DNA of 14,463 nucleotides, from NCBI GenBank assembly GCA_003519585.1, contig DOWL01000169.1:15559-30021 (forward strand), given 5' to 3'. Below are positions 10,144-13,800 of this stretch, in pieces (position 1 is the stretch's first letter; every line of letters begins with the position of its first letter). Both the position numbers and the translations under genes were made by a program. This DNA is from Nocardioides sp. Its GTDB lineage: Bacteria; Actinomycetota; Actinomycetes; Propionibacteriales; Nocardioidaceae. The notes under the pieces are model-generated. The model saw nothing but the letters and a program-made list of their open reading frames with translations, did no database searches and was not told the origin of the DNA.

Positions 10144-10160
10144 TAGAGTTGACCCCCGTG
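10144..10160 (+). promoter_or_regulatory. Candidate -10 box of the CCA gene with little or no leader
   Basis: TAGAGT at 10144-10149 is followed by eight bases and GTG at 10158. There is no Shine-Dalgarno sequence. This spacing allows a leaderless or near-leaderless transcript starting at 10156-10158. A TTG in the same frame at 10149 would lie partly inside the box, which argues for the GTG as the start. Confidence 0.4.
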
Positions 10161-11609
10161 TCCGCACCCGCTCCGACGACCCGCACGGTGGTCGAACTCC
10201 AACAGAACGTGGGTGCCGAGCTCGACCGCATGGCCCCGGTGATCGACGACCTCGGTGCGCTGTTCGCGGATGCCGGTCACGAGCTGGCTCTGGTCGGCGG
10301 CCCGGTCCGCGACGCGATGCTGGGCCGGCCGCACACCGACCTCGACTTCACGACCTCGGCACGCCCCGACGAGACCGAGCGGCTGCTCGACGCGTGGGGC
10401 GAGGCGATCTGGGACATGGGCCGCGACTTCGGCACCATCGGCTGCCGCAAGGGACCGTGGACGGTCGAGGTGACGACGTACCGCTCCGAGGCCTACGACC
10501 CCGCCTCGCGCAAGCCGACGGTGGACTTCGGTGACACCCTCGAGGCGGACCTCGGCCGCCGCGACTTCACCGTCAACGCGATGGCGGTGCGGGTGCCGGG
10601 CCGGGTCGTGGAGGACCCGTACGGCGGTGCGATCGACCTGGCCCAGGGTCTGCTCCGCACACCCGGGACGCCCGAGCAGTCGTTCTCCGACGACCCGCTG
10701 CGGATGCTGCGCGCCGCACGCTTCGCCGCCCAGCTCGGCTTCACGGTGGCGCCCGAGGTGGTCGCCGCGATGACCGACATGGCCGGTCGGATCGAGATCA
10801 TCTCGGCCGAGCGGATCCGCGACGAGCTGGTGAAGCTGATCTTGGCCGCCCACCCGCGGCGCGGGCTGGCCCTGCTCGTCGAGACCGGCCTCGCGGCGTA
10901 CGTCCTGCCCGAGCTGCCGGCCCTCGCCCTCGAGCGTGACGAGCACCATCGGCACAAGGACGTCTACGAGCACACCCTCACCGTGCTCGAGCAGTCCATC
11001 GACCTGGAGGAGCGGCTGCCGGACGGCGGCCCCGACTTCGTCTCCCGCTTCGCGGCGCTGATGCACGACGTCGGGAAGCCGCGCACTCGGCGCTTCCTCG
11101 ACGACGGCTCGGTCACCTTCCACCACCACGACGTCGTCGGCGCGAAGCTGACCCGCAAGCGGATGCAGGCGCTGCGGTTCTCCAAGGACGAGACGGAGGC
11201 GGTCGCCAAGCTGGTCGAGCTGCACCTCCGCTTCCACGGCTACGGCTCCGGCGAGTGGACCGACTCCGCCGTACGCCGTTACGTGCGCGACGCCGGCGAC
11301 CAGCTCGAACGGCTGCACGTGCTCACGCGCGCCGACTGCACTACCCGCAACCGGGCCAAGGCCGAGCGGCTGCGGCGTACCTATGACGACCTCGAGGTCC
11401 GCATCGCCAGGCTCCAGGAGCAGGAGGAGCTCGACTCGATCCGCCCCGATCTGGACGGCAACCAGATCATGGAGCTCCTCGGCATCGGCCCCGGTCGCGA
11501 CGTCGGCCGCGCGTACCACTACCTGCTCGAACTCCGCCTCGACCGCGGCCCCATGTCGGAGGAAGCCGCCGCAGCCGCGTTGCTGGAGTGGTGGGGGTCG
11601 CGCTCCTGA
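10158..11609 (+). CDS. cca: CCA tRNA nucleotidyltransferase with HD domain
   Basis: A 483-residue class II CCA-adding enzyme or poly(A) polymerase-type nucleotidyltransferase, which completes or repairs the 3' CCA of tRNAs using CTP and ATP. The nucleotidyltransferase head has G47-G-P-V-R-D52 and the metal-binding D61-L-D63. The neck motif is R134-R-D-F-T-V-N-A-M142 followed by RMLRAARFAAQLGF. A C-terminal HD phosphohydrolase domain is present, with HHRHKDVYEHT (263-273), H303-D-V-G-K-P308 and FHHHDVVG (321-328). It corresponds to Rv3907c (pcnA) and diverges from the murJ operon as in mycobacteria. The nudix gene (mutT4) found beside it there is missing. Start GTG at 10158; an in-frame TTG at 10149 is less likely. 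The gene ends 2 bp before a palindromic repeat. Confidence 0.95.
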   Translation: MSAPAPTTRTVVELQQNVGAELDRMAPVIDDLGALFADAGHELALVGGPVRDAMLGRPHTDLDFTTSARPDETERLLDAWGEAIWDMGRDFGTIGCRKGPWTVEVTTYRSEAYDPASRKPTVDFGDTLEADLGRRDFTVNAMAVRVPGRVVEDPYGGAIDLAQGLLRTPGTPEQSFSDDPLRMLRAARFAAQLGFTVAPEVVAAMTDMAGRIEIISAERIRDELVKLILAAHPRRGLALLVETGLAAYVLPELPALALERDEHHRHKDVYEHTLTVLEQSIDLEERLPDGGPDFVSRFAALMHDVGKPRTRRFLDDGSVTFHHHDVVGAKLTRKRMQALRFSKDETEAVAKLVELHLRFHGYGSGEWTDSAVRRYVRDAGDQLERLHVLTRADCTTRNRAKAERLRRTYDDLEVRIARLQEQEELDSIRPDLDGNQIMELLGIGPGRDVGRAYHYLLELRLDRGPMSEEAAAAALLEWWGSRS

Positions 11610-11610
11610 G

Positions 11611-11675
11611 CCGTCGAGTGACGCGAAAGTGCTGCGCATCGCCGTTCTGAACAGCACTTTCACGACGCTCGACGG
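11611..11675. repeat. 65-bp palindromic repeat, copy 1 (also likely terminator)
   Basis: The arms are 24 nt each (11611-11634 and 11652-11675) around a 17-nt loop, pairing at 21 of 24 positions. The inner 10 bp, GAAAGTGCTG with CAGCACTTTC, are perfect. It starts 2 bp after the CCA stop codon, so it probably ends that transcript. The right arm also encodes the last residues (R-A-S) and the TGA of the minus-strand gene that follows. It repeats, in the same orientation, at 12579-12643. Confidence 0.85.
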
Positions 11676-12514
11676 TCCCGTTCATCCAGCGGACGGAACT
11701 TGTCCTCACGGACCACGTCGCTCTCGTGCTGCAGTTTGTCGCGGTGGTGCGCTCCCATGAACTCGCCGACGACGCCGCGTCGCGGGTCGATGAGATCGGG
11801 TACGCCTACGAATCGGCCGTCGAGATCCAGGACCGGTCTGTTGCACAGTGGGTGGCCCCAGCCCGCGTCGCAGCGCCACACCAGCCGGTAGTCCGTCTCG
11901 TACGGCGACCACGAGTTCTCGTCACACAGGTCGAGCGCCTGGTCGACGTTCCGGACGTCGCGGTACCAGCGCCGCTCGAGCCGGTAGAGGCGCATCCGGC
12001 GAATCGTCGTCAGCTCCGCTGCGAAGGTCATGTCGGCTGAGACGACCATCGCGCGGGGGTAGTGGACTCGTCTCATCTCGTCGAAGAGTGCTCGTTCGAC
12101 GGAAGCGCAGCGAATGCCGTGGATGACCAGGATCTCGTCCGGAGGGACCGTGAATCGTGACGCGAGAATCCCGTCGTGGTGCTGTAGCCGTTCACCGTTG
12201 GTCGCGATCGGCACCGGAAGCCGAGTCACGCCGTCGCGGGCGAGACCATCGAAGTAGCCAGCGCCCCAGAGTCGCAAGGCGGCCCATCCTGTGACGACGG
12301 CACGCTCGCCAGCCCGACAGGCGGACTCCAGGATCCGCTGTTCGACGTACTCGTCACTCACGTGAGCGGGCACGAACCTGCCCGGGGACGTACGCCGCCA
12401 GTTCGGTCCCCGAGACCGGGGCTTCGTGGGCCCGGTGATCCCGAGAGGGTCCACCGGCACGGGGACGACGAGACCTGTCGCGGGCGGAGCGAAGAGATGC
12501 TCTGGGCGTCGCAT
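11660..12514 (-). CDS. AbiEi-like/DUF559-like protein in a repeat-bounded cassette
   Basis: A 284-residue soluble protein of a type common in actinobacterial accessory regions. The N-terminal half (about 1-150) resembles AbiEi-type antitoxin/transcription-regulator proteins: an N-terminal stretch with VPVPVDP, then AVVTGWAALRLWGAGYFDG (72-90), then GIRCASVERALFDEMRR. The C-terminal part (about 200-275) resembles the DUF559/Vsr-like nuclease fold, with E206 in SPYETDYR, D240 in VGVPDLIDP, E251 in GEFMGAHHRD, and a basic tail VVREDKFR. The protein stops soon after KFR, where relatives as I recall them continue, and its last codons lie inside palindrome copy 1, so a C-terminal truncation is possible. 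No cognate toxin gene (AbiEii) is adjacent. ATG at 12514 has no clear ribosome site or promoter. Base composition looks less GC-biased than in neighbouring genes, consistent with transfer. Function is not established. Confidence 0.7.
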   Translation of the reverse strand: MRRPEHLFAPPATGLVVPVPVDPLGITGPTKPRSRGPNWRRTSPGRFVPAHVSDEYVEQRILESACRAGERAVVTGWAALRLWGAGYFDGLARDGVTRLPVPIATNGERLQHHDGILASRFTVPPDEILVIHGIRCASVERALFDEMRRVHYPRAMVVSADMTFAAELTTIRRMRLYRLERRWYRDVRNVDQALDLCDENSWSPYETDYRLVWRCDAGWGHPLCNRPVLDLDGRFVGVPDLIDPRRGVVGEFMGAHHRDKLQHESDVVREDKFRPLDERDRRAS

Positions 12515-12578
12515 GCCCAGGCTCTGCCCGCAGGCACCTGTGGACGACCAAGGACTTTGCAGTCTGTGGAGAACGCTT

Positions 12579-12643
12579 CCGTCGAGTGACGCGAAAGTGC
12601 TGCCAGATCAGGGATCTGACAGCACTTTCACGACGTTCGACGG
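12579..12643. repeat. 65-bp palindromic repeat, copy 2 (also likely ino1 terminator)
   Basis: The arms are 12579-12602 and 12620-12643 around a 17-nt loop. The left arm is identical to copy 1 over all 24 bases and the right arm differs by one base, but the loop sequence is unrelated. The loop itself holds a smaller hairpin (CAGATC-AGG-GATCTG). It lies 16 bp downstream of the ino1 stop codon on the minus strand, so it could terminate ino1. It begins 65 bp upstream of the start of the cassette gene. Confidence 0.85.
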
Positions 12644-12659: not shown

Positions 12660-13748
12660 TTACTCCTCGCCGCGGATGAAGGCCTCCACGCGGGCGCGGC
12701 CCTCCTCGTCGGGGAGCTGCACCGGCGGGGACTTCATGAGGTAGGACGACGCGGAGATGATCGGGCCGCCGATGCCGCGGTCCTTGGCGATCTTGGCCGC
12801 CCGGATCGCGTCGATGATGATGCCGGCGGAGTTGGGGGAGTCCCAGACCTCGAGCTTGTACTCCAGGTTGAGGGGTACGTCGCCGAACGCGCGGCCCTCG
12901 AGACGGACGTAGGCCCACTTGCGGTCATCGAGCCAGGCGACGTAGTCGGAGGGGCCGATGTGCACGTTGCGGTCGTGGGCGTCGGCCCCGGCCAGCGAGC
13001 CGGTGAGGTTGGAGGTCACGGCCTGGGTCTTGGAGATCTTCTTGGACTCCAGGCGCTCGCGCTCGAGCATGTTCTTGAAGTCCATGTTGCCGCCGACGTT
13101 GAGCTGGTAGGTGCGGTCCAGCGCCACGCCGCGGTCTTCGAACAGCTTGGCCAGCACCCGGTGGGTGATGGTCGCGCCGACCTGGGATTTGATGTCGTCG
13201 CCGACGATCGGGACACCGGCGTCCTCGAACTTCTTCGCCCACACGGGGTCGGAGGCGATGAAGACGGGCAGCGCGTTGACGAAGGCCACGCCGGCGTCGA
13301 TCGCGCACTGGGCGTAGAACTTGTCGGCCTCCTCCGAGCCCACGGGGAGGTAGGAGACGAGCACGTCGGCCTCGGCCTCGCGCAGCGCGCGGACGACGTC
13401 GACCGGCTCGGCCGCCGACTCCTCGATGGTTTCGCGGTAGTACTTGCCGAGCCCGTCAAGGGTGTGGCCCCGCTGGACGTCGATGCCGAGGGTCGGCACC
13501 TCGCAGATCTTGATGGTGTTGTTCTCGGAGGCGTTGATGGCCTCGGAGAGGTCCTTGCCGACCTTCTTGTCGTCGACGTCGAACGCCGCGACGAACTCCA
13601 CGTCGGAGACGTGGTAGTCACCGAAGGTGACGTGCATCAGCCCGGGGACCGTGCCACTGGGATCGGCGTCCCGGTAGTAGTGCACACCCTGGATCAGGGA
13701 GGTGGCACAGTTGCCGACTCCGACGATTGCTACTCGAACCGAACCCAT
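12660..13748 (-). CDS. ino1: Inositol-3-phosphate synthase
   Basis: A 362-residue, NAD-dependent myo-inositol-1-phosphate synthase of the short actinobacterial/archaeal type. It converts glucose 6-phosphate to inositol phosphate, the precursor of phosphatidylinositol, its mannosides and mycothiol. The NAD loop is G10-V-G-N-C-A15. Conserved catalytic-core segments are [11 protein letters not shown] (183-193), [11 protein letters not shown] (217-227), [14 protein letters not shown] (231-244), SDYV (267-270) and [17 protein letters not shown] (293-309). The ATG at 13748 is chosen because a GAAGGGA ribosome site lies at 13758-13764 and the protein then begins [10 protein letters not shown] as in the family. 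The PadR regulator gene is 52 bp upstream in the same direction, matching the Rv0047c-Rv0046c pair, so they probably share a transcript. Confidence 0.96.
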
Positions 13749-13800
13749 GGGGTGCGTTCCCTTCTGATTTGACCTTCTGGCTGACACAGTCGGCTGTCCC

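Follow-up and report, generated by a model that had tools for sequence, protein, structure and literature searches.

A palindrome-bounded AbiEi-like/EDxHD nuclease gene of Nocardioides and its dispersed palindromes: a candidate REPtron-like system

The palindrome-bounded gene and its relatives

The DNA analysed here, a stretch of 14,463 nucleotides from contig DOWL01000169.1 of Nocardioides sp. (hereafter the window), contains a single-gene cassette that lies between cca and ino1 and is bounded by two palindromes. Cognate flanks in most loci of this gene family, dispersed copies of the palindromes, specificity between arm and cassette, active-site residues, placement at 3′ ends and a near absence of the tyrosine transposases (RAYTs) associated with repetitive extragenic palindromic (REP) sequences were observed, and the locus is considered a probable member of a REPtron-like palindrome-plus-nuclease system built on a non-HUH nuclease. 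In such a system, the family gene would encode a fusion of an AbiEi-type winged-helix protein with an endonuclease of the EDxHD type (Vsr/I-Bth0305I-like) and would be bounded by the palindromes that this protein recognises. The features of the locus are as follows.

11611–11675, downstream (stop-side) palindrome with 24-nt arms and a 17-nt loop, cognate to the ino1-side palindrome
11660–12514, minus strand, cassette gene encoding 284 amino acids with an AbiEi-like N-terminus and an EDxHD/Vsr-like endonuclease domain
12579–12643, upstream (ino1-side) palindrome with 31-nt arms and a 3-nt loop, 16 bp beyond the ino1 stop
10149–11609, plus strand, cca (tRNA nucleotidyltransferase), the convergent neighbour, with synteny in relatives
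12660–13787, minus strand, ino1 (inositol-1-phosphate synthase), upstream neighbour of the cassette gene in the same direction, present in 205 of 215 Nocardioides genomes

A direct read of the sequence confirmed what an earlier note on this DNA had described: both palindromes are 65 bp long and start 968 bp apart, their left 24-nt arms are identical (24/24) and their right arms differ by one base (23/24), and the stop codon of the cassette gene (11660–11662) is inside the downstream palindrome. This palindrome begins one base beyond the cca stop and contains the final codons of the cassette gene together with its stop, and the stop-side palindromes of relatives have a similar position. The arm 20-mer showed three matches in the window with up to three mismatches against 0.01 expected, a number reached in 0 of 200 shuffles, and both palindromes folded far better than their shuffled versions (z = −4.3 and −7.6), so chance is excluded for the window palindromes. 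The Rfam scan of the window gave no match at gathering scores.

The window protein matched no Pfam or NCBIfam family, and a PDB search by sequence profile returned no meaningful match to it. The label of AbiEi-like/DUF559-like protein in the earlier note thus had no such match behind it in the window protein, and its AbiEi/nuclease part was upheld through relatives, PADLOC models and fold comparison. By fold, the family matched AbiEi, the winged-helix protein of AbiE systems, at the N-terminus and Vsr/EDxHD and I-Bth0305I at the C-terminus, with the Vsr-like catalytic fold of EDxHD nucleases. The residues E206, D240, x251, H257 and D266, which were placed by our own reading and not by residue-level superposition, are E-D-E-H-D in 80 of 89 genome loci (one of 90 yielded no protein), with x varying among E, Q and D. 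All the named relatives found for the cassette protein belong to Nocardioides. The window protein is 52 amino acids shorter than its relative P0001, with an in-frame gap in the nuclease domain, and the window copy, which is without about 52 residues of this domain, has probably decayed. Full-length relatives with the nuclease domain intact are represented by the members in N. halotolerans and N. mangrovi (L007/L008). Because the relatives P0007, P0009 and L348 look frame-shifted in their C-terminal part, the family gene may decay repeatedly; P0009 also seems to read on through its own palindrome.

At the family loci in whole genomes, the palindromes typically lie 110–190 bp before the start of the protein match and at or just past the stop. 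The flanks of 44 out of 51 loci were compared, after four partial or weak matches, two loci near contig ends and one with runs of N had been set aside. A match score of at least 20 between upstream and downstream flanks was obtained in 39/44 loci as against 71 of 1,892 mismatched pairs, which is the REPtron feature of a gene bounded by cognate palindromes with one gene per palindrome type. The own downstream flank ranked first in 29 loci and among the top three in 39. Between different cassettes of one genome, the flank match never exceeded 15 (32 ordered pairs), which indicated that the palindrome goes with the gene and not with the genome. Hairpins with a score of at least 14 were found upstream in 33/44 and downstream in 27/44 loci and in 9/120 random windows, which were drawn from ino1-side regions like those of the leader-box control given below; the scoring clips palindromes that overlap the stop.

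The close subfamily with the outer end CGTCGAG showed pairing-preserving changes on both sides in 15 of 23 arm pairs, and its covariation amounted to 61 cells compared with 17.6 in shuffles (0/500), although the sample includes 20 palindromes hand-picked as palindromes and the percentage paired is therefore partly by choice. Beyond this subfamily, matched palindromes of quite different sequence were found in 8 of 29 AbiEi_4 loci of the order (one of 30 sampled was dropped), namely L124, L131 and L133 in Nocardioides and L121, L132, L136, L139 and, more weakly, L116 outside it. Eight loci with DUF559 matches in five genomes had no matched hairpin pair. As side observations, the DUF559-matching genes of L106 (G005) and L107 (G009) have long inverted matches between their flanks and no matched hairpins, and a head-to-tail array of half-palindromes with a period of about 31 bp lies upstream of the G118 cassette (L249, 407–660).

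Dispersed palindromes and their association with the gene

The arm search in related genomes found the arms dispersed as solo copies, so the outcome in which the arm occurs nowhere else did not arise. The arm GRTAGTCCCTGACG, searched on both strands, has 55, 54, 22 and 6 copies in the four genomes whose cassettes carry it, one copy in one other genome and none in six, and the reversed control was 0 in all eleven. The window-type arm CGTCGAGWSACVYSA gave 3–30 matches per genome in eleven genomes against 0–1 for the control, some of these short-pattern matches being due to chance, such as the three in G005, where there is no palindrome. Palindromes of the form GRTAGTCC...GGACTAYC were present in 149 of 215 Nocardioides genomes with up to 43 per genome, and the reversed pattern gave 0–1. 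In the copies that were read, the arms are conserved and the loops vary, and the length is close to 62–64 bp. Outside Nocardioides, the L139 arm has 8 matches in G223, the genome it comes from, where the cassette accounts for two, and 0–3 in 17 other genomes. Numerous extragenic copies scattered through one genome, a trait by which a REPtron is known, are thus found in the relatives.

The type of palindrome followed the type of cassette. From 18 palindrome-rich genomes, 24 cassettes were compared, and GRTAGTCC-type arms stand on both sides of a cassette in 13 of these genomes, whereas in the 14 genomes without GRTAGTCC palindromes such arms were found on 0/16 cassettes (p = 3e-5), eight of which have other matched hairpins on both sides. 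At least five palindromes were present in 105 of 176 genomes with a detected family gene and in 5 of 39 without (p = 8e-8); the 39 gene-negative genomes, 20 taken from a listing and 19 by subtraction with the 10 best candidates per genome scored, may include misses. When palindrome pairs 1.2–1.3 kb apart were chosen by position alone, 5/5 among the matches listed enclosed a family gene, which is split over two frames in one of them (L348), and three wider stretches (2.4, 2.4 and 4.3 kb, one with a single intact palindrome) enclosed none. The flank matches, the dispersed copies and this position test together bear out the proposal of the earlier note that the palindromes and the protein family go together, with a solo dispersal like that of REPs with RAYTs, and in the relatives the repeat was not a general terminator without link to the family, nor was the gene free of repeats in all of them.

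It is very improbable that a RAYT (TnpA-REP) encoded elsewhere in the genome spreads the palindromes as ordinary REPs, with the nuclease gene as a bystander. The outer ends GGTAG and CGTC do resemble the tags GTAG and CGTC by which known REPs are marked (PMC3733652), but in the present palindromes, hairpins of ~63 bp, these tags are base-paired on either side. The RAYT-type domain Y1_Tnp (PF01797) was detected in only 1 of the 215 Nocardioides genomes, against palindromes in 149, and in neither the window protein nor 29 relatives, while the same search gave matches in E. coli and four others of 14 control genomes. RAYTs therefore do not explain the palindromes, and the bystander role is further opposed by the family gene being enclosed in every position-chosen pair.

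The placement of 36 distinct palindromes, a few of which are cassette palindromes, was classified with a gene caller that is a crude GC3 (third codon position) heuristic: 20 are in tandem gaps, 13 between convergent genes, none between divergent genes and three inside predicted genes, one of these three apparently fitting the loose pattern by chance. For most of the 36, a stop codon is tens of bases away at most. This bears on an explanation by autoregulation, in which the protein acts like AbiEi on its own gene and the palindromes serve as its operators and terminators: the protein would repress its gene by binding the upstream palindrome, the scattered copies would be further binding or termination sites and nothing would be mobilised. 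Such hairpins at gene 3′ ends, whose arm pairs keep pairing across species in the 15/23 cases given above, would suit it, as would the AbiEi fold of the N-terminus and the AbiEi of S. agalactiae, which represses its own promoter by binding long inverted repeats (PMC3985639). Operators are, however, expected at promoters, yet 0 of the 33 extragenic palindromes are between divergent genes; autoregulation needs no second cognate palindrome at the stop codon, and a repressor needs no conserved EDxHD active site. We regard autoregulation as an unlikely explanation.

Inheritance of the gene and movement of the palindromes

The cassette is present in 9 of 40 ino1 regions compared and lies beside cca and/or ino1 in nine genomes examined, and compared with the genes next to the N. 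halotolerans cassette, cca of the window shows 88% identity and ino1 93%. Among the hairpins listed for the 31 cassette-free ino1 junctions, there is no CGTCGAG palindrome; those close to the ino1 stop are others and mostly shorter, and the cca–ino1 spacing goes down to 214 and 228 bp (L071, L077). To the earlier note, a junction with one copy of the window palindrome looked like the ancestral state. As this copy is listed at none of the 31 junctions, the ancestral junction would have had no more than an ordinary hairpin. Where a cassette is present, the palindrome on the ino1 side can resemble such a terminator core, lengthened by cassette-specific outer arms (L098 compared with L102).

The idea of a mobile gene cassette in that note also found no support, given the cca/ino1 neighbourhood in nine genomes, the finding that no two cassettes of the same genome share a palindrome and the lack of any tblastn match to P0001 in plasmid and phage collections. 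Similarly, no relative of the cassette protein was confirmed in viral contigs. The cassette appears to be old and vertically inherited at cca–ino1, with the palindrome as the spreading part; the cassettes of N. psychrotolerans and N. mangrovi (L006, L008) have neither cca nor ino1 as a neighbour, which leaves room for some relocation. A related explanation is that the whole cassette is mobile and the solo palindromes are scars of recombination between flanking repeats that deleted the gene, as in solo long terminal repeats. The flanking palindromes are indeed direct repeats of each other, the cassette is elsewhere in the two named species, and the solo copies are without the gene and mostly without the leader boxes described below (a box lies within 70 bp in only 9 of 57 distinct palindromes of solo-site loci, some of which are cassette palindromes). 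The same neighbourhood and plasmid/phage results argue against it, and same-genome cassettes share no palindrome, yet solo copies reach tens, which makes this explanation quite unlikely. As an observation of its own, a hairpin that has the inner arm found in the window (GAAAGTGCTG...CAGCACTTTC) is present in three IMG/VR viral contigs (L001–L003).

Several observations weigh against the palindrome-plus-nuclease system proposed here. Strong hairpins on both sides (score of at least 13) were found in only 23/44 loci, and no matched palindromes were seen in 21 of the 29 AbiEi_4 loci of the order. Among the palindrome-rich genomes, 5/18 had cassettes without GRTAGTCC-type flanks when first compared, of which G016 was later resolved by another cassette with GRTAGTCC-type arms; G056 has 14 GRTAGTCC palindromes and no family gene at E ≤ 1e-40, where the gene may be lost, missed or diverged. 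The association counts and their p-values (3e-5 and 8e-8) ignore phylogeny. When 11 sites were compared between close relatives, two were absent with both flanks kept, five were present in both and four had one or no flank matched or extra DNA, and neither of the two absences comes with a clean boundary or a target-site duplication. The 14 copies listed for G103 all align by coordinates with those of its close relative G102, and ten orthologous pairs of these genomes have no compensatory change. Palindrome movement is accordingly slow or past, and that the protein binds, cuts and disperses the palindromes is what we infer.

The 11 sites were made up of nine palindromes in two close genome pairs, among which L210 is absent in the relative with flanks kept, four are present in both and four had one or no flank matched or extra DNA, and of three joined-flank sites, the third of which, already counted among these last four, proved to be present. 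The first of the three is missing in G137 but present in G086 and G144, and the second has 2.2 kb of other DNA in G137; insertion and deletion are not distinguishable in such presence/absence differences. In G102/G103, the copies simply decay. The few and unclean differences together with this decay imply that dispersal is slow, past, or partly the work of host repair or gene conversion. Between G009 and G035, which have the same arms, 2 of 12 G009 solo sites were common by DNA and a third only by a weak protein-level match, when compared with 12 of the 16 listed non-cassette G035 sites. Six compensatory pairs were counted in eight orthologous sites of G086/G137. It was also noticed that many arms read ..GGGTCG in G086 and ..GTGTCG in G137, with both arms changed at some orthologous sites, as if converted in concert.

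Proposed mechanism and relation to known systems

In the palindrome-plus-nuclease system considered here, the protein would act as a dimer whose winged-helix domains recognise the conserved outer arms of a palindrome of roughly 60 bp, and it would nick or cut at the palindrome or on its extruded hairpin, after which repair or replication could copy the palindrome to new sites. The copies at transcript ends would be tolerated as terminator-like hairpins, and the gene would stay in place and be inherited vertically, as a RAYT gene is. I-Bth0305I acts as a dimer on a target of nearly 60 bp (PMC3943268), and the inverted repeats bound by AbiEi have a perfect outer part of 11 bp, which extends to 23 bp (PMC3985639); a dimer on a palindrome of ~60 bp with winged helices on the outer arms and the nuclease at work inside or next to it fits both. 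Whether EDxHD/AbiEi-like enzymes that co-evolve with their own palindromes form a second, non-HUH class of repeat-dispersal system in Nocardioides and perhaps other actinobacteria, which may also serve REPs without RAYT, we judge to be evenly balanced.

The likeness to REP/REPIN–RAYT systems lies in a gene flanked by cognate palindromes, many gene-free extragenic copies with genome-specific arms, and several palindrome types in one genome, each with its own gene. RAYT genes are described as single-copy genes that are inherited vertically and have not been seen on plasmids, in contrast to their dispersed REPs (PMC8049555, PMC8266576), and the Nocardioides gene likewise behaves as a resident, no plasmid copy having been found. 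The differences are that the protein is AbiEi-like with an EDxHD endonuclease whereas RAYT is a Y1 HUH transposase; that REPs are hairpins of 20–50 nt after a tetranucleotide tag, most often GTAG, whereas the palindromes here are single hairpins of ~59–65 bp with paired ends, other cassettes having other ends; and that copy numbers are in tens and not hundreds. Since the defining Y1 protein was tested for and is absent, the locus is not classed as a member of the REPtrons, and the cassette equally lacks the Y1 HUH transposase of IS200/IS605. Unlike I-Bth0305I/Vsr relatives, the gene stands between intact palindromes instead of interrupting its target, has no intron or intein host in sight and is fused to an AbiEi-like part. 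It also differs from the AbiE type IV toxin–antitoxin systems by the extra nuclease domain, the stop-codon palindrome and the dispersed copies, and the cassette gene is alone between its palindromes, no co-transcribed gene for the AbiEii nucleotidyltransferase toxin being found in the window. PMC3733652 describes dispersed palindromes ending in CGTC that have no RAYT attached and are said to lack a dedicated transposase, with the tag at one end only in contrast to the present palindromes. C. crescentus is on the published list of alpha-proteobacteria with CGTC REPs, and a control search for DUF559 gave a match in Caulobacter vibrioides. The palindrome-associated transposable elements of haloarchaea were considered as well and set aside.

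REP-like repeats are widespread in bacteria, and RAYT is the only partner enzyme named in the excerpts consulted; among the matches listed from open-licence PMC literature, likewise seen in part, no description of a link between AbiEi/nuclease proteins and palindromes was found. Here, one family of hypothetical proteins predicts the sequence of a palindrome and, in a small position test, its place, in a genus nearly free of RAYT. If the nuclease does disperse the palindromes, dispersal of repeats by a resident enzyme would have arisen at least twice from unrelated proteins, the CGTC-tagged REPs would gain a concrete candidate enzyme, and a family of AbiEi/DUF559-like hypothetical proteins would have a role.

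Two further features lie between the upstream palindrome and the start of the cassette gene.

12537–12547, minus strand, leader box TCGTCCACAGG, with the TCCACA of family leaders
12563–12573, minus strand, second leader box TTCTCCACAGA, adjoining the upstream palindrome

Of 47 family leaders (loci L016–L065; four of 51 were left out), 37 contain TCCACA on one strand or the other, as compared with 38 of 1,200 random 120-nt windows, and the consensus of the leader boxes is T[CT][GA]TCCACAG. These boxes, which we take to resemble the DnaA box, could tie the expression of the cassette to replication.
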